This document shows positions 1,376 to 28,250 of a stretch of DNA of 30,625 nt, piece after piece. Numbering within the stretch: position 1 is the stretch's first letter; the number at the start of each line of letters is the position of its first letter. This DNA is from Acidithiobacillus sulfuriphilus (lineage in GTDB: Bacteria > Pseudomonadota > Gammaproteobacteria > Acidithiobacillales > Acidithiobacillaceae), in contig NZ_RIZI01000170.1 of assembly GCF_003721225.1 (NCBI RefSeq), positions 1-30,625 on the forward strand. Reading direction: 5' to 3'. Below the pieces are notes generated by a model, which did not search any database, was not told where the DNA came from, and saw only the letters and a list, made by a program, of their open reading frames with translations. Both the position numbers and the translations under genes were made by a program.

Positions 1376-2716
1376 TCAGATCAGGTCCAGCCCCGCCTCG
1401 CGAAAGCGCTGCAGCTTGTGACGCAAAGTCCGCGGACTAATCCCCAGGCGCTGCGCCGCCAGCGTCCGGGAGCCGGCGCTTTGCGCCAATGCCTGGGCGA
1501 TGAGCCCGCGCTCGCTCTGCAAGCGGGCGTCCTCCAGGGCGCTCCCCGTACCGTCGTCCGTGACCGGTCCCGGCTCCGGGGAGGACGCCGTTATCCCCAG
1601 ATGGGTCACCGTGATTTCGCCGCCATTCGCCATGATAACGGCACGTTGCAGGCAATTCTCCAATTCCCGCACGTTACCCGGCCAGCGCCAGGCCAGCAAG
1701 GCGTCTTGGGCAGCCTGACTCAGGCGCGGGAGCGTGCTGATGCCCAGCAAAGGCCCCTGGCGGCGCAAAAACCGTTGGGCCAGCACTGGGATATCCGCCC
1801 GGCGCTCGCGCAAGGGGGGGATATGAATGGGAAAGACGTTCAGGCGGTAAAAGAGATCCTCGCGCAAGCGGCCGTTGCCCACGGCCTCCTGCAAGTCGCG
1901 GTTGCTGGTGGCGATGACGCGCAAATCCAGACGGATACTGCGCCGCCCCCCCACCCGCTCCAGTTCCCGCTCCTGCAAGACCCGCAACAATTTGGCCTGG
2001 AGGCCGGCGGCCATTTCCGTCACCTCGTCGAGGAGCAGGGTACCCCCTTGGGCCTGCTCGAACTTGCCGGGGCTGGCTTGGGTAGCGCCGGTAAAGGCGC
2101 CCTTTTCATGGCCGAAGAGGGTCGCCTCCAGGAGCGACTCGGGTATGGCGGCGCAATTCACGGCCACGAAAGGTCCCTGGGCCCGTTTCCCGTGTTGATG
2201 GACGTAGCGCGCCAGGACCTCCTTCCCTACTCCGCTCTCTCCCGTCAACATCACCGAGGCATCGGTGCCGGCCACGCGCCGCGCCAGATCCAGGGTGGTG
2301 ACCATGGCGGCAGACTCCGCGACCGGTTCGCCGTCATCCGAAGGACGCGGCTGCGCGTAGTGCGCCACTTTTTGCAGCAGGAGGTCAGCCGAAAAGGGCT
2401 TGACCAGGTAGTCCACTGCCCCCCCCTGCAGGGCCACCACCGCCTCCTGAACCGTACCCCAGGCCGTCATCATCAGGACCGGCGGGACGCCGCTGCGCCC
2501 TCCCAGTGCCCGTAACAGGGCATAACCATCCATGGGCGCCATCTGCACGTCGCTGATGATCATATCGAAGGGTGCCGCCGCCAGCATCGCCAGGGCCTCG
2601 CCACCATCATGGGCCCAACGCACGCCATAGCCGTTGTCCTCCAGGGCATCCTGCAAGGCCTCGGCCAGGGGCTCGTCGTCTTCCACCAAGAGCAGTCGTG
2701 GATGGTAACCGGTCAT
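1376..2716 (-). CDS. flrC: FlrC/FleR-type sigma-54-dependent response regulator
   Basis: FlrC, once phosphorylated by FlrB, opens sigma-54 promoters of hook and basal-body genes. The 446-aa protein has three parts. The receiver domain (about 1-120) has acidic residues D13/D14, phospho-acceptor D56 (MIISDVQM) and K106 (YLVKP). The AAA+ domain (about 135-375) has Walker A GESGVGKE at 159-166, the sigma-54 contact motif GAFTGA at 206-211, and Walker B LLLDE at 227-231. The C-terminal Fis-type helix-turn-helix spans about 405-440. All catalytic motifs are intact. The start codon overlaps the flrB stop (ATGA), so the pair is translationally coupled; a clear AAGGAGAGG precedes it. It could also be called fleR; I use the Vibrio name because of the neighbours. 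Confidence 0.95.
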   Translation of the reverse strand: MTGYHPRLLLVEDDEPLAEALQDALEDNGYGVRWAHDGGEALAMLAAAPFDMIISDVQMAPMDGYALLRALGGRSGVPPVLMMTAWGTVQEAVVALQGGAVDYLVKPFSADLLLQKVAHYAQPRPSDDGEPVAESAAMVTTLDLARRVAGTDASVMLTGESGVGKEVLARYVHQHGKRAQGPFVAVNCAAIPESLLEATLFGHEKGAFTGATQASPGKFEQAQGGTLLLDEVTEMAAGLQAKLLRVLQERELERVGGRRSIRLDLRVIATSNRDLQEAVGNGRLREDLFYRLNVFPIHIPPLRERRADIPVLAQRFLRRQGPLLGISTLPRLSQAAQDALLAWRWPGNVRELENCLQRAVIMANGGEITVTHLGITASSPEPGPVTDDGTGSALEDARLQSERGLIAQALAQSAGSRTLAAQRLGISPRTLRHKLQRFREAGLDLI

Positions 2717-3924
2717 TTCCTCTCCTTGTCCTCTGCCAGGGCGCCGCTAGCCAAGGCCTGTGGCGCTTTCCAGATAGGCACCTGCAACACCAGACTCGCC
2801 CCTGCGACAGCTTCCCCATCGACCCCCAGGCTGCCCCCCATGGCTACCACAAAATCGCGGGCGATGGCCAAGCCCAAGCCCGTACCGTCGCGCCGGGTGG
2901 TGTAAAAGGGCGTGAAGATGCGCTCCTGGTCTACCGTAGCAATTCCCGGGCCTTGATCGCGAACCACGATGGCAATCACGTCATCCTCGGGCCCGCGCAA
3001 ATCCGCCGTTACCGTGCTGCCCTCGGGGCTGAATTGCAGGGCGTTGTGCAGCAGGTTGGCGATCACGCTGACCCAGGCCGCTTGACTCCCGGGCAGGGCG
3101 AGTTCGTTTCCCAAGACAGGAAGGATCAAAGTGACGTTTTTTTGACGGAATAAGGAATCAAATTCTTGACGCAATTCTCCAAAAATTCTCTGCAACGTCA
3201 CCGATCCCGCTTCCTGTTCCGCGCCGCGCAAAAAACGCAGCATGGCATCGATGGTGGCATCCAGATGCTGCAAGCGCTCCATGGCGCGCCGTTGCTGCCG
3301 GGCAAAGCGTTCCGCCTCGGCGCCAAAGCGCAATTGCGATACCGAGAGCAGGGCGGCTGCCAGGGGGGTACGCAGTTGATGGGCCAGACCGGCCATGGTG
3401 GCACCCATGGCCGCTAGACGCTCGCGGCGCTGCGCCGATTCCTCCCGGGCATGGGCGGCCGTCACATCCTGGAGCAGGATGATCTGGCCGCTGTCTCCCG
3501 GCAGCGCGTTCACGGCCACCGTCAGCCGCAGTTCCACCCCGTTGGCGGCCTGCAATACCCACTCGCTCTTACCCCCCGCCAGATGGGCGGCGGAGACCTG
3601 GCGCCAGTTTTGCCCGCGCAAATCCGCGCCAAGGATACGCCAGGCTTCGGGGTTCATGTCGATGATCCGGCCCTGCCCATCCAGGACCAGAACGGCGCCG
3701 GGGAGCATTTCCAGGAGCGTGGCCAGGCGCTGGCGCATGCACTCCTTGGCGGCGAGTTCGTCCGTCAGGCGGCCATTGGCCTCCGCCAGCTCGGCGTTGA
3801 GCCGCCGCACCTCTTCCTGCAAGGCCGCATAGGCCCCGCTCAACTCCCGGGAAGCCTCGTTGAAGAGGGAAAAGGCCTCCATCAGGGCCGCGGCGTCCGG
3901 GATCCCGCCACCCTCGTCCTTCAC
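2713..3924 (-). CDS. flrB: FlrB/FleS-type flagellar sensor histidine kinase
   Basis: This soluble kinase phosphorylates FlrC. The 403-aa protein has no membrane segment. A coiled coil at about 28-70 precedes a PAS domain at about 70-155 ([18 protein letters not shown]). The phospho-acceptor His182 is in [11 protein letters not shown], the family H-box. The ATPase domain has the N box NLLHNAL at 290-296, DQGPGI at 323-328 and GTGLGLA at 347-353. It starts with GTG inside the flrA stop (GTGA) and its own stop overlaps the flrC ATG, so flrA, flrB and flrC form one tightly coupled unit. The signal sensed by FlrB/FleS proteins is probably internal, linked to basal-body completion; that is family knowledge and is not visible here. 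Confidence 0.94.
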
Positions 3925-5045
3925 CCGCCCAACCCTTCCCGGCGCCCATCACCGGCATATTTTTTGAGTTTTTCCACCAGGGTAGTGCGGCGCAAGCCGA
4001 GGCGCTGGGCGGCCCGCGCCACCACCTGATCGCTCTCGGCCATGGCCTGGGCAATCAAGGCCTGCTCGATGTCTTCGAGATGGAGCTTGAGATCAAAGGG
4101 CCCCGCCGGCAACAGCGCCAAGGGCTCGGCCCAGACCTGCGCGAGGCTGCGGCGCTCATCCTCCGGATCATCCGGATCATCCGCCACGGACGCAGCGGGA
4201 CGATAGCGGGGGGGCAGATCGGCGACGCCCACCTGCTGTCCGGGATAAAGGATCGTCAAGCGTTCGACGAGATTTTGCAACTCACGCACATTGCCCGGCC
4301 AGGGATAGGTTTGGAGGGCTTGGTGGATCTCGTCGTCCAAATAGACCCGTTCGCGCCCCTGCGCGCTGAGACTGGCGAGAAAATGCTCGGCGAGCAGCGG
4401 GACATCCTCGCAACGGGCCCGCAGGGGCGGCACCTCGATGGGAAAGACATTGAGCCGATAATAGAGATCTTCCCGAAACAGCCCATCGCCCATGCGCTGC
4501 TCCAGATCGCGATGGGTCGCCGCCACGACCCGTACATCGGCGTGGATGGTCTGGCTCCCGCCGACGCGCTCAAAGCGCCGTTCCTGCAGAATCCGCAACA
4601 GTTTGACCTGCATCTGCGCGCTCATCTCGGCGATCTCGTCGAGGAAGAGCGTACCCCCCTGGGCCAACTCAAAACGCCCCTTGCGGCTGACCACCGCACC
4701 GGTGAAGGCGCCCTTTTCGTGGCCAAAGAGCTCACTTTCCATCAGTTCGGCGGGGATGGCGCCACAGTTCAGGGCCACAAAGGGTCCCTCCCTACGGGGC
4801 GACAGGCGATGCACGCAACGCGCCACCAACTCCTTGCCCGACCCCGACTCTCCGAGAATGAGCACCGTGCTGTCCGTCCCGGCCACCCGTTCCGCCAAGC
4901 GTGCCACGGCGGCCAGGGCCGCGCTCCGGCCTTGCAGTGCGCAGCAATGGCGGGCCGAAGATTCCGCCTCTCCAGCGCGAACGGCGCGTTCCAAGGCCGC
5001 CGCATTATCCAAACCAAACCTCCGGCTGCGTTGGCCAGATCCCAT
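3921..5045 (-). CDS. flrA: FlrA/FleQ-type master flagellar regulator, short N-terminus
   Basis: This is a sigma-54-dependent activator at the top of the flagellar cascade. The AAA+ domain has Walker A GESGSGKE at 65-72, GAFTGA at 112-117 and Walker B LFLDE at 133-137. The C-terminal end ([13 protein letters not shown], then VVARAAQRL and [12 protein letters not shown]) closely matches the Fis-type domain of Pseudomonas FleQ, which settles orthology. Two features are odd. Only about 40 residues precede the AAA+ domain where FleQ has a receiver-like domain of about 120-140 residues, and the FleQ LFRS c-di-GMP contact is replaced by a sequence reading HCCALQG. An in-frame TGA lies three codons before the first ATG, so no longer start is possible in this frame. 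The ATG at 5045 has only a weak ribosome-binding site. A 9-bp tandem repeat at about 4161-4181 encodes the acidic DDPDDPED linker. Confidence 0.9.
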
Positions 5046-5153: not shown

Positions 5154-5708
5154 CTAACCAACCGGGTCGGTTCTCTGGCGGCTACGCGCCACTTCACGGC
5201 GATGATGACGAAAGATTAGTCGATCCAGGCTTTCCTGCACATGCCTATCCAGGTGAAAGTGCAATTGACACCAGATACCCCCTTGGCCGGGGGTGCCTGC
5301 CTGCATGACTCCGGGGAGGATCAAGGGCATGGCAATACGGGGGCGCAGGAAAAGCGCCAGACAGCAGCGCTCACCGACGGCCGGGAAAGGGGCCGGATCA
5401 TTGCAGCACCAACGGATATATTGACCGCCCAGCACGCAGGGATAAACGGGCGGGGCGGGCTCCAGGCCCTTGAGCCCGGCGCTGACCAGCAAAAGGAGGA
5501 GATCCACCTTGGTCTCCAGCCCCCCCATGGCCTCCTTGCCCTCTTCCTCGCCACCGCCGGCCTTGTCATCCATCAGGAGCAGGGCGCGCAATAGCGTCCA
5601 GTTATCGGCCATCACCGCCGTCATGACCGATTCATCTTCGGGCCATGGCGCAGGGCGCAGCGGCAGATTGCCGCGCAAGACTACCGGGTTCTCATCGAAG
5701 TCGTCCAT
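5154..5708 (-). CDS. Atypical (tPilZ-like) PilZ protein, candidate c-di-GMP receptor
   Basis: The 184-aa protein is not a classical PilZ: I see no RxxxR pair before the barrel. It resembles the tetrameric PilZ type known from Xanthomonas. An N-terminal helical segment ending in GGLETKVDLLLLLVSAGL would form the oligomerisation helix, a beta-rich part follows (about 90-150), and the end RLIFRHHRREVARSRQ matches a tail I recall from such proteins. It lies between flrA and fliS, so a role in c-di-GMP control of flagella is likely but inferred. The stop is 108 bp before flrA. The ATG at 5708 follows a G-rich stretch (GGGGGGAGG) with very short spacing. Family assignment is from memory of motifs only. 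Confidence 0.6.
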   Translation of the reverse strand: MDDFDENPVVLRGNLPLRPAPWPEDESVMTAVMADNWTLLRALLLMDDKAGGGEEEGKEAMGGLETKVDLLLLLVSAGLKGLEPAPPVYPCVLGGQYIRWCCNDPAPFPAVGERCCLALFLRPRIAMPLILPGVMQAGTPGQGGIWCQLHFHLDRHVQESLDRLIFRHHRREVARSRQRTDPVG

Positions 5709-8565: not shown

Positions 8566-10158
8566 TTACGGAATGAGCTTGAGATAGCTCTGCTGCAAGG
8601 CATTGGCCTGCGCCAAGGTAGAGATACCCGCCTGTTGCAGGATCTGGTACTTGGTCAACTGCGAGGTCGCCTGGGCGATGTTTGCATCCTGTACCACCGA
8701 CTGCGCCGATTGCAGATTGGTCGCCGTCGTTTGGTCATTGGTGACTGAAGCCTGGATCCGGTTCTGGATGGCACCCAAGGCGCCATTCTGCGAGTTGAGG
8801 TTGTTGACAGCCTGATCCAGAATGGCAATGGCCTGCTGTGCGCCTTGGGCCGTGCTGACGTTGATGTTGGAAACGGCCGAACCGGAGAGCGACGCCGCCT
8901 GGGTGCTGAAGCCGATATTGCCACCGTTGCCAATGGCATAGGAACTGCTCGACTCGAACTGCACTGCACCCTGAATCAGGGCGTTGGCCGAGCCGCTGCT
9001 GATGGCCGTGCCCACATTGGCAATGGTTGTGGACCCGCTCACCGCCTGCAGACTCCCCGTTGAGCCCGAAGCCAGCCCCGAGCCGATGAGGGCTCCCGTG
9101 CTACTCACGCCTGCAGAGATATTAATGTTCTGACCATTGGACTGAGTCAGCACCAACTCCGTGGTCCCGTTGACTGTCTGGGTGTTGGCAGAGACGCCTG
9201 TGACCGCCGCCTGATTGTTGATGGCCGAAACCAGCGAACTGAGATCCACCTGGCCATTGGAACTCTGGGTAACCGTTGCCGAAACGTTGACGGCATTGGA
9301 AACGCCCGACGCGCCACTGCTGCCGTTGCTCAGGGTGAAGGTATAAGTGCCGGTAGTGGCGGTGAAGGCCACGCTGGTATACGCCTGCGCCGTCACGCCC
9401 GTCTGGGAGGAAACGGCGTTTACTGCTTGGGCCAGATTGGCCGCCGACTCCGTAGAAGAATTGACGTTCACATAGGCATTGCCCGCGGAACCCTGCACAT
9501 AGAGACCGCTGGTTCCGGTTCCAGACGTAAAATTACCCACCCCGGAGGTGCTGAGCGTAAATGCGCCGCCCGCGGCATAACCGCCCATCTGGAAAGAACC
9601 GCTGCTAGTATAGACGGCACCAGAAGTGACTGTTGTGTAATTACCAATGGCGTTGGTTTGCGCATTGTTCACCGAGACATTGATAATCTGGTTGGCATTT
9701 GCACCCACCTGAAACTGTGCGCCGGCAAAGCTGCCATCAAGCAGGTTCTGGCCGTTGAACTGGGTCTGGGTCGCGATGGTTTGCACCTGGGCCAGCAACT
9801 GCGTAACGACGTTTTGCAGGGCCGCACGGTCCTGCGTGGTGTTGGAGGCGTTGGCCGCCTGTACCGCCGTGGTGCGGATCTGCTGGAGCAGGCTGGTCTG
9901 GTTCTGGATGGCGCCGGTGGCCGTCTGCACCAGGGATACGCCCTGGTTACCATTGGATACCGCCTGATTCAGGCCGTTGATCTGCGTCTGGAAGCGCTGG
10001 GCGATGGCATAGCCGGCGGGGTTGTCGGCGGGACCGTTGATCTGCTTGCCGGTGGAAAGCTGCTGCAGATAGGTATTGAGGTTGCCCTGGGTGCTGTTGA
10101 GGGCGTTGAGGGTGTTCAACGCCGAGACGTTGGTATTGATGATTCCTGAGAGTGCCAT
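8566..10158 (-). CDS. fliC: Flagellin, the filament subunit
   Basis: Flagellin polymerises into the filament. The 530-aa protein has the conserved D0/D1 ends: N-terminal NTNVSALNTLNALN, LSTGKQINGPADNPAG and ALQNVVTQLLAQ, and C-terminal GAIQNRIQASVTN, then ANIAQATSQLTKYQILQQAG and the final QANALQQSYLKLIP. The centre (about 170-420) is Ser/Thr/Gly/Asn-rich and variable, with many possible O-glycosylation sites. I count only 3 Lys, 4 Arg, 7 Asp and 3 Glu. The second ATG (10158) is taken as the start: AAGGAG is 7 nt upstream of it but only 1 nt from the ATG at 10164. A sigma-28 promoter and a structured leader precede it, and a giant glycosyltransferase gene lies next to it. Confidence 0.97.
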   Translation of the reverse strand: MALSGIINTNVSALNTLNALNSTQGNLNTYLQQLSTGKQINGPADNPAGYAIAQRFQTQINGLNQAVSNGNQGVSLVQTATGAIQNQTSLLQQIRTTAVQAANASNTTQDRAALQNVVTQLLAQVQTIATQTQFNGQNLLDGSFAGAQFQVGANANQIINVSVNNAQTNAIGNYTTVTSGAVYTSSGSFQMGGYAAGGAFTLSTSGVGNFTSGTGTSGLYVQGSAGNAYVNVNSSTESAANLAQAVNAVSSQTGVTAQAYTSVAFTATTGTYTFTLSNGSSGASGVSNAVNVSATVTQSSNGQVDLSSLVSAINNQAAVTGVSANTQTVNGTTELVLTQSNGQNINISAGVSSTGALIGSGLASGSTGSLQAVSGSTTIANVGTAISSGSANALIQGAVQFESSSSYAIGNGGNIGFSTQAASLSGSAVSNINVSTAQGAQQAIAILDQAVNNLNSQNGALGAIQNRIQASVTNDQTTATNLQSAQSVVQDANIAQATSQLTKYQILQQAGISTLAQANALQQSYLKLIP

Positions 10159-10166
10159 GGTCATGC

Positions 10167-10198
10167 TCCTTTCTTAGGCGTTTTCGGCATCCTTGCCG
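10167..10198 (-). promoter_or_regulatory. Candidate CsrA-binding leader of flagellin mRNA
   Basis: On the minus strand CGGC-AAGGAT-GCCG (10185-10198) forms a 4-bp stem with GGA in a 6-nt loop. CAAGGATG agrees with the core of the CsrA SELEX consensus. A second GGA lies in the flagellin ribosome-binding site (AAGGAG, 10166-10171), 23 nt away, a spacing one CsrA dimer can bridge. With csrA and fliW in this window, FliW-controlled CsrA repression of flagellin translation is a reasonable inference. Confidence 0.6.
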
Positions 10199-10199
10199 T

Positions 10200-10227
10200 G
10201 GATGTGCGTCACGCTGCCCGCACATCC
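10200..10227 (-). repeat. 9-bp hairpin at the 5' end of the flagellin leader
   Basis: GGATGTGCG and CGCACATCC are perfect inverted repeats around a 10-nt loop, located immediately below the -10 box of the flagellin promoter. If transcription starts 6-8 nt below the -10 box, the first bases of the stem would be at or just before +1, so only part may fold in RNA. Such a stem at the 5' end can protect abundant mRNAs. It may equally be a protein-binding site in DNA. Confidence 0.55.
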
Positions 10228-10230
10228 CTT

Positions 10231-10257
10231 ATAACGGCACATTTTCCAAAAACTTTA
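10231..10257 (-). promoter_or_regulatory. Sigma-28 (FliA) promoter of flagellin
   Basis: On the minus strand the -35 box is TAAAGTTT (identical to the enterobacterial consensus), the spacer is 11 nt and the -10 box is GCCGTTAT (consensus GCCGATAA). It lies 73 nt upstream of the flagellin ATG. It closely matches the sites ahead of flgM and the flgN-like gene, which supports all three. Confidence 0.88.
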
Positions 10258-10295: not shown

Positions 10296-10369
10296 GTAGG
10301 AGCGGCCCATGGCCGCGACTCCCATGGCCTGCGGTCCGGACGCAAGTCGCGGCCATGGGCCGCTTCTAC
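10296..10369. repeat. Inverted pair of REP-like palindromes
   Basis: Two 25-bp arms (10296-10320 and 10345-10369) match at 24 of 25 positions in opposite orientation around a 24-nt loop. Each arm holds the self-complementary core GCGGCCCATGGCCGC preceded by GTAGGA or GTAGAA. This resembles the GTAGGAGCGGC...GCCGCGA extragenic palindromes of pseudomonads and relatives, here arranged as a two-unit (BIME/REPIN-like) element. It lies between the glycosyltransferase stop and the flagellin promoter and could act as a transcription or decay barrier. No second copy was noticed in the window. Confidence 0.75.
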
Positions 10370-26659: not shown

Positions 26660-26687
26660 TCAAGTTTTCGGGGAAATGTGTCGTTAT
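26660..26687 (+). promoter_or_regulatory. Sigma-28 promoter of flgM
   Basis: TCAAGTTT, a 12-nt spacer and GTCGTTAT lie 29 nt ahead of the flgM ATG. The sequence around the -10 box (AAATGTGTCGTTATTAGG) nearly repeats the flagellin promoter. It lets sigma-28 make its own inhibitor, the usual feedback loop. The remaining part of 26549-26716 shows no gene. Confidence 0.82.
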
Positions 26688-26716: not shown

Positions 26717-27049
26717 ATGAACCCCATCAACTCCCATACCGCCTTGACCGGCAATCACCTGCATCCGGCCGATAGCGCCAAGGTCAATGCCAAAACGGCC
26801 GGCGGCCAGCCCGCCGTTGCCGCCGGCCAACAAAATCCGCCGGTGCCCCAGGACCAGGTCACACTGTCGGCAACGGCGCGTAGCCTACTGGCGGCCCAGA
26901 CCGCGCCCACGGGTGGCGCACGGCTAGGCGAGATCAAGGCAGCGCTGGCCAATGGCAGCTACCCGATCTCTCCGCAACGCATTGCCCAGGGGATGATCCA
27001 GGACAACCGGCAGCTATTGGTCCCTGCCCCGCCGGCGGGCAAAGCCTAA
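26717..27049 (+). CDS. flgM: FlgM, anti-sigma-28 factor
   Basis: FlgM binds FliA (sigma-28) until the hook is finished, then leaves through the export channel. The 110-aa protein has a disordered, Pro/Gln/Asn-rich N-terminal half and the conserved C-terminal sigma-binding part: DQVTLSATARSL, LGEIKAALANGSYPISPQRI and AQGMI. The ATG at 26717 follows AGGGAG by 7 nt and begins the typical short FlgM N-terminus; the longer in-frame start at 26579 would cover the promoter. Co-transcription with flgA and its own sigma-28 promoter give the usual dual control. Confidence 0.95.
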   Translation: MNPINSHTALTGNHLHPADSAKVNAKTAGGQPAVAAGQQNPPVPQDQVTLSATARSLLAAQTAPTGGARLGEIKAALANGSYPISPQRIAQGMIQDNRQLLVPAPPAGKA

Positions 27050-27052
27050 ACC

Positions 27053-27469
27053 GTGTCCCCTCCCGTCGCCGCACCCGGCACCTTGCTCGCCGAGCAGATC
27101 ACCCTGCTCCGGCAACTGCTGGAGAAACTGCAGGAGGAGCGCCGCATCCTGAGTAGCGGAGCCACCCTGGATCTCCCCCCCATCACCGCCGCCAAAAGCG
27201 AACTCTATCGCGCCGTCGCGGACCTGGAGGCGCAACGGCGGGTGTGGCAAGGAAGCGGCACGGCCTTGCCCGCAGCCCCGGCGGCAGATCGTGATGAGCT
27301 CCTGCGCTGCATCCTCCGGATCAATGCGGAAAACGGCCAGATCATCGATGCCCTGGGCCGCTTCACCCAGGGGGCGTGGAAGCTGCTTTTTGCCACCGAG
27401 GACCCGATTTATACACCCAACGGCATCGCCGGCGCCCAACGCCCCAGCGGCCTCATCGGCAGCGCCTGA
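27053..27469 (+). CDS. flgN: FlgN, export chaperone for FlgK/FlgL
   Basis: FlgN escorts FlgK and FlgL. The 138-aa protein has the usual all-helical build: LLAEQITLLRQLLEKLQEER, ITAAKSELYRAVADLEAQRR, LRCILRINAENGQIIDALGR and the terminal YTPNGIAG, which matches the FlgN ending with Tyr-x-x-x-Gly. The GTG start is 3 bp after the flgM stop. The flgM-flgN order is standard. A second FlgN-like gene lies next to flgK (17713). Confidence 0.85.
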   Translation: MSPPVAAPGTLLAEQITLLRQLLEKLQEERRILSSGATLDLPPITAAKSELYRAVADLEAQRRVWQGSGTALPAAPAADRDELLRCILRINAENGQIIDALGRFTQGAWKLLFATEDPIYTPNGIAGAQRPSGLIGSA

Positions 27470-27471
27470 CG

Positions 27472-27732
27472 GTGCTCGTCCTTACCCGCCGCCGCGGTCA
27501 GGCCATTTGCATTGGTGAGCACATCCGCGTGCTCGTCACCCGCATCGGCGACGGGCAGGTGCGGCTGGGCATAGAAACCCCCCAGGGTGTCTCCGTGCTC
27601 CGTGAGGAGCTGCTGGACTCCGTGCGCAAGGCCAATCGGGCAGCCCGCGAGACCGTTCCCGACAATTTCACCCACTGGTTACAGGTCCATCGCCCGGCGC
27701 TGGACCACCCATCTCCGGAGGAAGCGCCATGA
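27472..27732 (+). CDS. csrA: CsrA, RNA-binding post-transcriptional regulator
   Basis: CsrA dimers bind GGA motifs in mRNA leaders and block or stabilise translation. From the GTG at 27472 (2 bp after flgN) the 86-aa protein begins V/MLVLTRRRGQAICIG and keeps the key residues: Leu4, Arg6/Arg7 and Arg44 in VSVLREE. It is about 25 residues longer than E. coli CsrA (61 aa), with a Trp- and Pro-containing tail (about 61-86). Longer C-termini are a feature of CsrA proteins that work with FliW. Asn55, a position I recall as important for FliW interaction in Bacillus, is present. No clear ribosome-binding site, so translation is probably coupled to flgN. It overlaps the fliW start by 4 bp. Confidence 0.93.
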   Translation: MLVLTRRRGQAICIGEHIRVLVTRIGDGQVRLGIETPQGVSVLREELLDSVRKANRAARETVPDNFTHWLQVHRPALDHPSPEEAP

Positions 27733-28250
27733 GCATGCAAGCGACCCGTTTCGGCCCCTTGGATATCGATGATGAGCAAATCTGGACCTGCGCTGCCCCC
27801 ATGCCGGGCTTTGAAGACCTGCGTCGTTTTGCGCTCCTCCATGTGGCCGATCAGGGCCCTTTTCTCTGGTTGCAGTCCCTGGAAGAGCCGCTCATTTCCT
27901 TCCTGCTCGTAGAAGGGCGGCATTTCGCCCTGGATTACACCGGCAGGCCACCCTTCCTTCGGGCCGAAGGGAGTTGCATCACCCTGGTCATGGTCATTCT
28001 CCCCCGGCAGCCTGAGGAAGGCCTGCAGGCCAACGCCCTGGCGCCCCTCTGTTTCCAGCCGGAGAGCCGCCAGTTTGGCCAATGGATTGTCGATACCCAG
28101 CAAAGCGGCACCGCAATGCCGCCCGTCCACGGGAATACCCCCCCTCTGGCCCTGGCCGGACATATCCTGCCTCTCATCGCCCACCAGCCCCTAAACCCCT
28201 CCAGCCAGGTTACCGCGGGTGCTGCGCAAGTGTTGGCGATTGCGTTGTAA
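27729..28250 (+). CDS. fliW: FliW, CsrA antagonist / flagellin homeostasis factor
   Basis: FliW binds free flagellin; when flagellin is secreted, FliW is released and removes CsrA from flagellin mRNA. The N-terminal 125 residues fit the family: TRFGPLDIDDEQIWTC, MPGFEDLRRFALL, PFLWLQSLEEPLISFLLVE and the end of the core at LAPLCFQPESRQFGQWI. About 45 extra C-terminal residues (130-173) extend beyond the usual length of about 150. ATG overlaps the csrA stop (ATGA) behind GGAGGAA. Its last 60 bp overlap ycgR on the other strand. Confidence 0.9.
   Translation: MSMQATRFGPLDIDDEQIWTCAAPMPGFEDLRRFALLHVADQGPFLWLQSLEEPLISFLLVEGRHFALDYTGRPPFLRAEGSCITLVMVILPRQPEEGLQANALAPLCFQPESRQFGQWIVDTQQSGTAMPPVHGNTPPLALAGHILPLIAHQPLNPSSQVTAGAAQVLAIAL

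Follow-up and report, generated by a model that had tools for sequence, protein, structure and literature searches.

The leader of the flagellin gene described here is in all likelihood a two-site CsrA operator in a FliW-CsrA-flagellin homeostasis loop, and the start of the flagellin mRNA very probably carries a switch that stops flagellin synthesis when flagellin piles up. This reading has a sequence-level basis: a motif and its spacing, conservation, co-occurrence of the components, diagnostic residues and promoter-like boxes. The relevant features of the window (the whole stretch of 30,625 nucleotides analysed) are collected in Table 1; papers are cited by PMC number from extracts of their text.

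Table 1. Features of the window relevant to the proposed flagellin switch
Feature	Position	Strand	Basis
FlrC/FleR-like sigma-54 response regulator	1376..2716	-	domains
FlrB/FleS-like PAS histidine kinase	2713..3924	-	domains
FlrA/FleQ-like sigma-54 activator, 374 aa	3921..5045	-	domains
Flagellin, 530 aa, ATG 10158	8566..10158	-	Pfam PF00669/PF00700, translation
Shine-Dalgarno (SD) AAGGAG with GGA, presumed CsrA site 2	10166..10171	-	sequence
H2, putative CsrA site 1, CGGC-AAGGAT-GCCG, loop 10194-10189	10185..10198	-	sequence, conservation
H1, 9-bp hairpin GGATGTGCG/CGCACATCC, predicted transcript 5' end	10200..10227	-	folding
Sigma-28-like promoter of flagellin, TAAAGTTT-N11-GCCGTTAT	10231..10257	-	sequence; similar boxes in relatives
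Sigma-28-like promoter upstream of flgM-flgN-csrA-fliW	26660..26687	+	sequence vs consensus
flgM, anti-sigma-28	26717..27049	+	TIGR03824, PF04316
flgN	27053..27469	+	PF05130
csrA, GTG start, 86 aa, R44/V51/N55	27472..27732	+	PF02599, residues
fliW, start overlaps csrA stop (ATGA)	27729..28250	+	PF02623, PDB 5dmb FliW E=7.8e-6

The flagellin leader and its predicted fold

The initial annotation had described a GGA in the 6-nt loop of a CGGC/GCCG hairpin and a second GGA in the ribosome-binding site 23 nt away, and both are present: the hairpin is H2, whose C-G closed loop AAGGAT matches the CsrA site pattern A_GGA, and the loop GGA lies 23 nt from the GGA of the SD downstream. The CAAGGAUG of H2 agrees with the core of the E. 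coli CsrA site; the E. coli protein selects RUACARGGAUGU, mostly in six-base loops (PMC7652899), and the consensus selected by its C. jejuni counterpart is mAwGGAs, all ligands containing the A and the GGA (PMC6692469). An upstream ATG (10164), taken from the list of open reading frames, was rejected as the flagellin start, as the SD spacing is good only for 10158.

The initial annotation had suggested RNA folding as a check. The loop GGA of H2 is predicted to be unpaired with a probability of 1.0, and the minimum free energy fold closes one extra A-U pair to leave an AGGA tetraloop, while both G of the SD GGA are predicted to be mostly paired with the early coding sequence (unpaired 0.07 and 0.06). 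The H2 stem is short and the whole 123-nt leader is not unusually stable (z -1.35, with 19 of 200 shuffles folding equally well). Because the whole-leader fold is unexceptional, the case for H2 rests on motif and conservation. When the 78-nt leader was shuffled 20,000 times with its dinucleotides preserved, 107 shuffles gave an ANGGAN-loop hairpin of at least 4 pairs, and 41 gave one with a C-closed loop; the entire 30.6-kb window holds 5 ANGGAN-loop hairpins of at least 4 pairs on its two strands. No relevant Rfam 15 family was found for the leader, either in a scan of the window to E 1 or in a gathering-threshold scan of 18 loci.

The predicted 5' hairpin H1 and the sigma-28-like boxes, which precede both the flagellin and the flgM-flgN-csrA-fliW transcripts, are additions to the initial annotation; the boxes were named by their likeness to the sigma-28 consensus. 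Most relatives have a counterpart of H1, a hairpin at the same place with a different sequence. Tested against mononucleotide shuffles alone, the H1 region has a mean z of -2.44 over 38 distinct rows, with 31 of them under -1, and several Thiomonas-type rows have no stability excess (z near 0). In two leaders (L216 and L217) the H1 loop itself reads AGGGAT or AAGGAT. Further upstream, a REP-like palindrome (10296-10369), composed of two inverted GTAGGAGCGGCCCATGGCCGCGA copies, one with a mismatch, sits between a glycosyltransferase gene and the flagellin promoter.

FlrABC/sigma-54 control genes had been announced nearby, and FlrABC-like genes are indeed found at 1376-5045, their Flr/Fle names being given by position and domains. 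The domain search found no receiver domain in the FlrA/FleQ-like activator, which is adjoined by a tPilZ gene (5154-5708).

Conservation of the leader hairpin

The close set comprises 42 readable orthologous leaders, the window's included, from Acidithiobacillus, Igneacidithiobacillus, Thiomonas, Tibeticola and unnamed MAGs (L034 and L041 were left out, their N-terminus being missing). The initial annotation had tied its proposal to conservation of the loop GGA in close relatives, and GGC-ANGGAN-GCC is kept in 40 of the 42, at least 4 pairs being formed in 35 of those 40. The A_GGA of the loop is invariant in these 40 rows, while the N positions and the outer stem letters vary (loops AAGGAU, AAGGAC, AUGGAU, ACGGAU, ACGGAC, AGGGAA and AGGGAC in the close set), and the two GGA are 23–25 nt apart in all 39 rows measured. 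Five leaders of a single clade have a C-A mismatch and 3 pairs only; L004, L005, L007, L024 and L044 are missed by the 4-pair detector and enter the GGC-ANGGAN-GCC count alone. The loop GGA is lost in L040 (loop AGGTAC), and in L035 (T. bhubaneswarensis) both H2 and the SD GGA are gone and H1 carries an AAGGAC loop.

Covariation had also been proposed earlier as a check. The fourth pair is C-G in 13, U-A in 7 and unpaired in 1 of 21 distinct rows, and the three inner pairs are invariant in the close set, where shuffles reach most pair measures and whole-helix shuffles are not decisive. In a wider set (alignment A3, 23 distinct rows) each of the seven pairs varies in both of its strands, but because the detector (at least 4 pairs) picked most of these rows, the inner four pairs are biased and the outer pairs alone are fair evidence.

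Within the GTDB family of the window, GGC-ANGGAN-GCC is present in 20 of 20 main-flagellin leaders, with at least 4 pairs in 16, while L203, L206, L209 and L221 have the 3-pair form (L218 and L224, which lack the N-terminus, are outside this count). The hairpin is absent from all 8 leaders of second flagellins (L222, L223, L225, L227, L226, L228, L229 and L230), which come from 7 genomes; in four family genomes (L226, L228, L229 and L230) the second flagellin gene is longer and lies upstream of the main one. The window's GTDB genus is represented by two genomes in the sample and the family by four genera. The window flagellin is 84% identical to its best named matches (Acidithiobacillus) and 76% to that of A. 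caldus, on which ground A. caldus was rejected as the source of the window. Flagellins of the Betaproteobacteria Thiomonas and Tibeticola are 62–71% identical to it (L016, L020, L028, L029, L030 and L033), with the same leader hairpin and with fliW present, a possible case of transfer.

The csrA and fliW genes and their products

The genome has a single csrA and a single fliW match, adjoining each other 17 kb from the flagellin leader; the initial annotation had assigned a long-tailed csrA and a fliW to this locus, at this distance. The csrA start follows the flgN stop by two bases. CsrA scores 63.7 against the PF02599 cut-off of 27 and has R44, but stays under the NCBIfam cut-off (59.9 vs 73); FliW, with 63 bits against the PF02623 cut-off of 25, likewise stays under the NCBIfam equivalog cut-offs (best 73.5 vs 165). 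The 86 aa of this CsrA compare with 59–75 aa in 28 CsrAs whose genes are unlinked to fliW. Numbered from the GTG, it has V51 and N55; the latter is present in 36 of 36 distinct fliW-linked CsrAs and in 1 of the 28 unlinked ones. In C. jejuni CsrA, FliW binding is 6-fold weaker with V51A and 10-fold weaker with N55A, and N55 is identical across all species compared in that study (PMC7829508). The fliW SD (CGGAGGA) falls within the last csrA codons (27710-27732) and could be a further CsrA site.

With a threshold of 1e-30, a UvrY match was found neither in the window's genome (G000) nor in 6 family members. At this threshold 8 of 17 FliW-positive and 11 of 13 FliW-negative genomes, the latter gammaproteobacterial, have a match; at 50% identity or more, the counts are 1 of 17 and 7 of 13.

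Co-occurrence of FliW and the hairpin

FliW was found in 39 of 40 genomes carrying the orthologous flagellin loci and in 40 of 45 over all genomes searched; a Desulfobacterales genome (L052) has both FliW and the hairpin. Among the 29 genomes of the GTDB family, FliW is present in 21 of the 22 that have the main flagellin (in G390 and G392 as fragments) and in 0 of the 7 that lack it (Fisher 5e-6); in G404, which is 98% complete, the hairpin is present and FliW was not found. In the window's clade, FliW, the N55-type CsrA and the leader hairpin go together.

A second sample covered the GTDB class Gammaproteobacteria and the phylum of a Desulfobacterales genome, with a detector of upstream hairpins that needs 4 pairs. 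Acidithiobacilli are placed inside Gammaproteobacteria in GTDB and in a class of their own elsewhere. Of 274 class genomes, 10 have FliW, the window's own included; the other 9 and 47 FliW-negative ones were searched for flagellin, 30 were positive, and one leader per genome was read (7 FliW-positive, 23 FliW-negative), many of these genomes having further flagellins. The class sample and the close set are not disjoint (L137 and L040 come from one genome; G071 and G217 belong to the window's order). From the Desulfobacterales phylum, 53 of 59 genomes were searched, 38 were positive and 30 leaders were read, again one per genome (25 of 27 FliW-positive, 5 of 11 FliW-negative).

Altogether, a hairpin upstream of the SD is present in 18 of 32 FliW-positive and 2 of 28 FliW-negative leaders (Fisher 7e-5; because the genomes are related, the Fisher values serve as no more than guides). 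By the per-group counts, the Desulfobacterales phylum has a strong link, and the class beyond the window's clade a weak one: 17 of 25 FliW-positive leaders in the former (0.36 expected) against 1 of 7 in the latter. Among FliW-negative leaders, the counts are 2 of 5 in the phylum (0.08 expected) and 0 of 23 in the class, all gammaproteobacterial (0.22 expected). In four hairpin-less FliW-positive class genomes (G161, G277, G263 and G294) csrA and fliW are a megabase apart or on different contigs, and their CsrA, in the set compared, is short and canonical, with N55 absent; G071 and G193 (the latter the genome of L040) have csrA beside fliW, yet no hairpin.

The probable leader element in Desulfobacterota is likewise an addition to the initial annotation. 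Of the 25 FliW-positive leaders from the Desulfobacterales phylum, 13 have the SD inside an ANGGAN hairpin (0.69 expected), and a weak version of this arrangement occurs in some acidithiobacilli (L205, L211, L215, L216 and L220). A flagellin leader from Schekmanbacteria (L079, 5001 region) has two ANGGAN hairpins, one upstream and one that contains the SD.

Proposed switch and alternative explanations

From these data we infer CsrA binding, repression, FliW-CsrA binding, FliW-flagellin binding and sigma-28 use. A CsrA dimer would bind the ANGGAN hexaloop of H2 with high affinity, bridge the 23 nt to the SD GGA and block the ribosome. FliW, encoded beside csrA and overlapping it, would bind CsrA at V51/N55 and free the leader, while cytoplasmic flagellin would bind FliW, so that unsecreted flagellin would free CsrA and shut off its own translation. 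Sigma-28, freed on FlgM export, would transcribe flagellin, FlgM, CsrA and FliW together; through this shared transcription the translational brake would thus be set when the late genes are switched on.

The direction of control is suggested by analogy, the leader anatomy resembling that of repressing two-site leaders with FliW release. On the flhDC mRNA of E. coli, CsrA protects the 5' end from decay and raises output. That CsrA binds the flagellin leader in the same sense, shielding the mRNA 5' end from decay and increasing flagellin output, appears very unlikely: a conserved hairpin does lie at the predicted transcript 5' end, but it is the SD that supplies the second GGA, at a constant distance of 23–25 nt, as in repressing leaders. 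The main doubt on repression is that csrA overexpression in A. caldus leads to longer flagella (PMC13029372), which is opposite to plain repression and would fit 5'-end protection; however, CsrA in that species also represses rpoS and has other flagellar genes among its targets, so that an indirect effect can explain the phenotype. An rpoF mutant of A. caldus has csrA, fliC and fliW all down (PMC6543871).

In another alternative, the main role of the abundant flagellin leader would be that of a sponge, titrating CsrA away from other mRNAs and hardly affecting flagellin itself, for which C. jejuni flaA provides a precedent (PMC4894983). The UvrY search gave no sign of CsrB-type control (no match at 1e-30), and the A. 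caldus authors, in the extracts, report no Csr-family sRNA (PMC13029372). We nevertheless regard a predominant sponge role as unlikely, since the SD overlap implies direct repression, although both roles are compatible. A reading without CsrA, in which H2 is a plain stem in the RNA or serves to fold the SD, is highly improbable. The short stem, a leader that folds no better than shuffles (z -1.35) and the lack of the hairpin in most FliW-positive class genomes would all agree with it, but a plain stem does not account for a loop whose A_GGA is constant in 40 rows while N and the outer stem letters change, nor for a hairpin that in the window's clade tracks FliW and the N55 CsrA.

The two-site operator may also be one member of a wider group. 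It is conceivable, though we would stop short of calling it probable, that the leader is one case of a cis-acting RNA family so far unlisted, the RNA partner of FliW-CsrA in several phyla, defined by an ANGGAN hexaloop before a GGA-containing SD and gained or lost together with the N55-type CsrA. With the SD often in a second ANGGAN hairpin in the Desulfobacterales phylum and H1 as a third in some acidithiobacilli, one leader may therefore hold more than one CsrA dimer, which, if true, may tune the flagellin set point.

Comparison with known systems

The proposed mechanism is a known one; judged by the literature searched, this is a new member of it, in a class where FliW is rare. In the titles and abstract openings of the open-licence literature searched, no flagellin leader of Acidithiobacillus, Thiomonas or Desulfobacterota is reported to hold a CsrA site. 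The initial annotation had called a FliW-CsrA-flagellin loop unusual in this setting, which holds for the rarity of FliW in the class (10 of 274 genomes), but A. caldus csrA and fliW have already been published among flagellar genes (PMC6543871), and Campylobacter also combines FliW-CsrA with sigma-54 flagellin control.

A. caldus, like the source of the window, is an Acidithiobacillus with csrA in the flagellar cluster, and its csrA, fliW and fliC are rpoF-dependent (PMC6543871). Its CsrA binds a GGA of the rpoS leader, and the same report sets Acidithiobacillus CsrA apart from the FliW group (PMC13029372); flagellin or fliC has 0 occurrences in its main text, and the extracts and primer list name other flagellar leaders. 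If the operator reading is correct, acidithiobacilli belong on the FliW side and possess the complete RNA target, flagellin is the next CsrA target to test after the A. caldus work, and culturable bioleaching bacteria gain a testable flagellin switch.

The E. coli CsrA system (BarA-UvrY, CsrB/C) shares with the window the CsrA core with R44 and the GGA loops, whereas the window's CsrA has a longer C-terminal part with N55, FliW is present and UvrY has no match at 1e-30. The B. subtilis hag leader, compared by arrangement, also has two CsrA sites, one of them on the SD, and FliW is the antagonist in a three-part FliW-CsrA-Hag homeostasis like that proposed here (PMC7652899, PMC6529632). It differs from the window's system, which has the extra 5' hairpin H1 and the gene order csrA-fliW, with flgM-flgN behind a sigma-28-like box, instead of fliW-csrA. 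C. jejuni flaA resembles the window in its A_GGA leader sites, FliW, CsrA V51/N55 and a sigma-54 plus sigma-28 hierarchy (PMC4894983, PMC7829508, PMC6692469, PMC9481697). Both flaA sites lie in stem-loops, whereas in the window site 1 alone lies in an ANGGAN hairpin; the SD-bearing ANGGAN hairpin of the Desulfobacterales phylum is comparable with the second flaA stem-loop.
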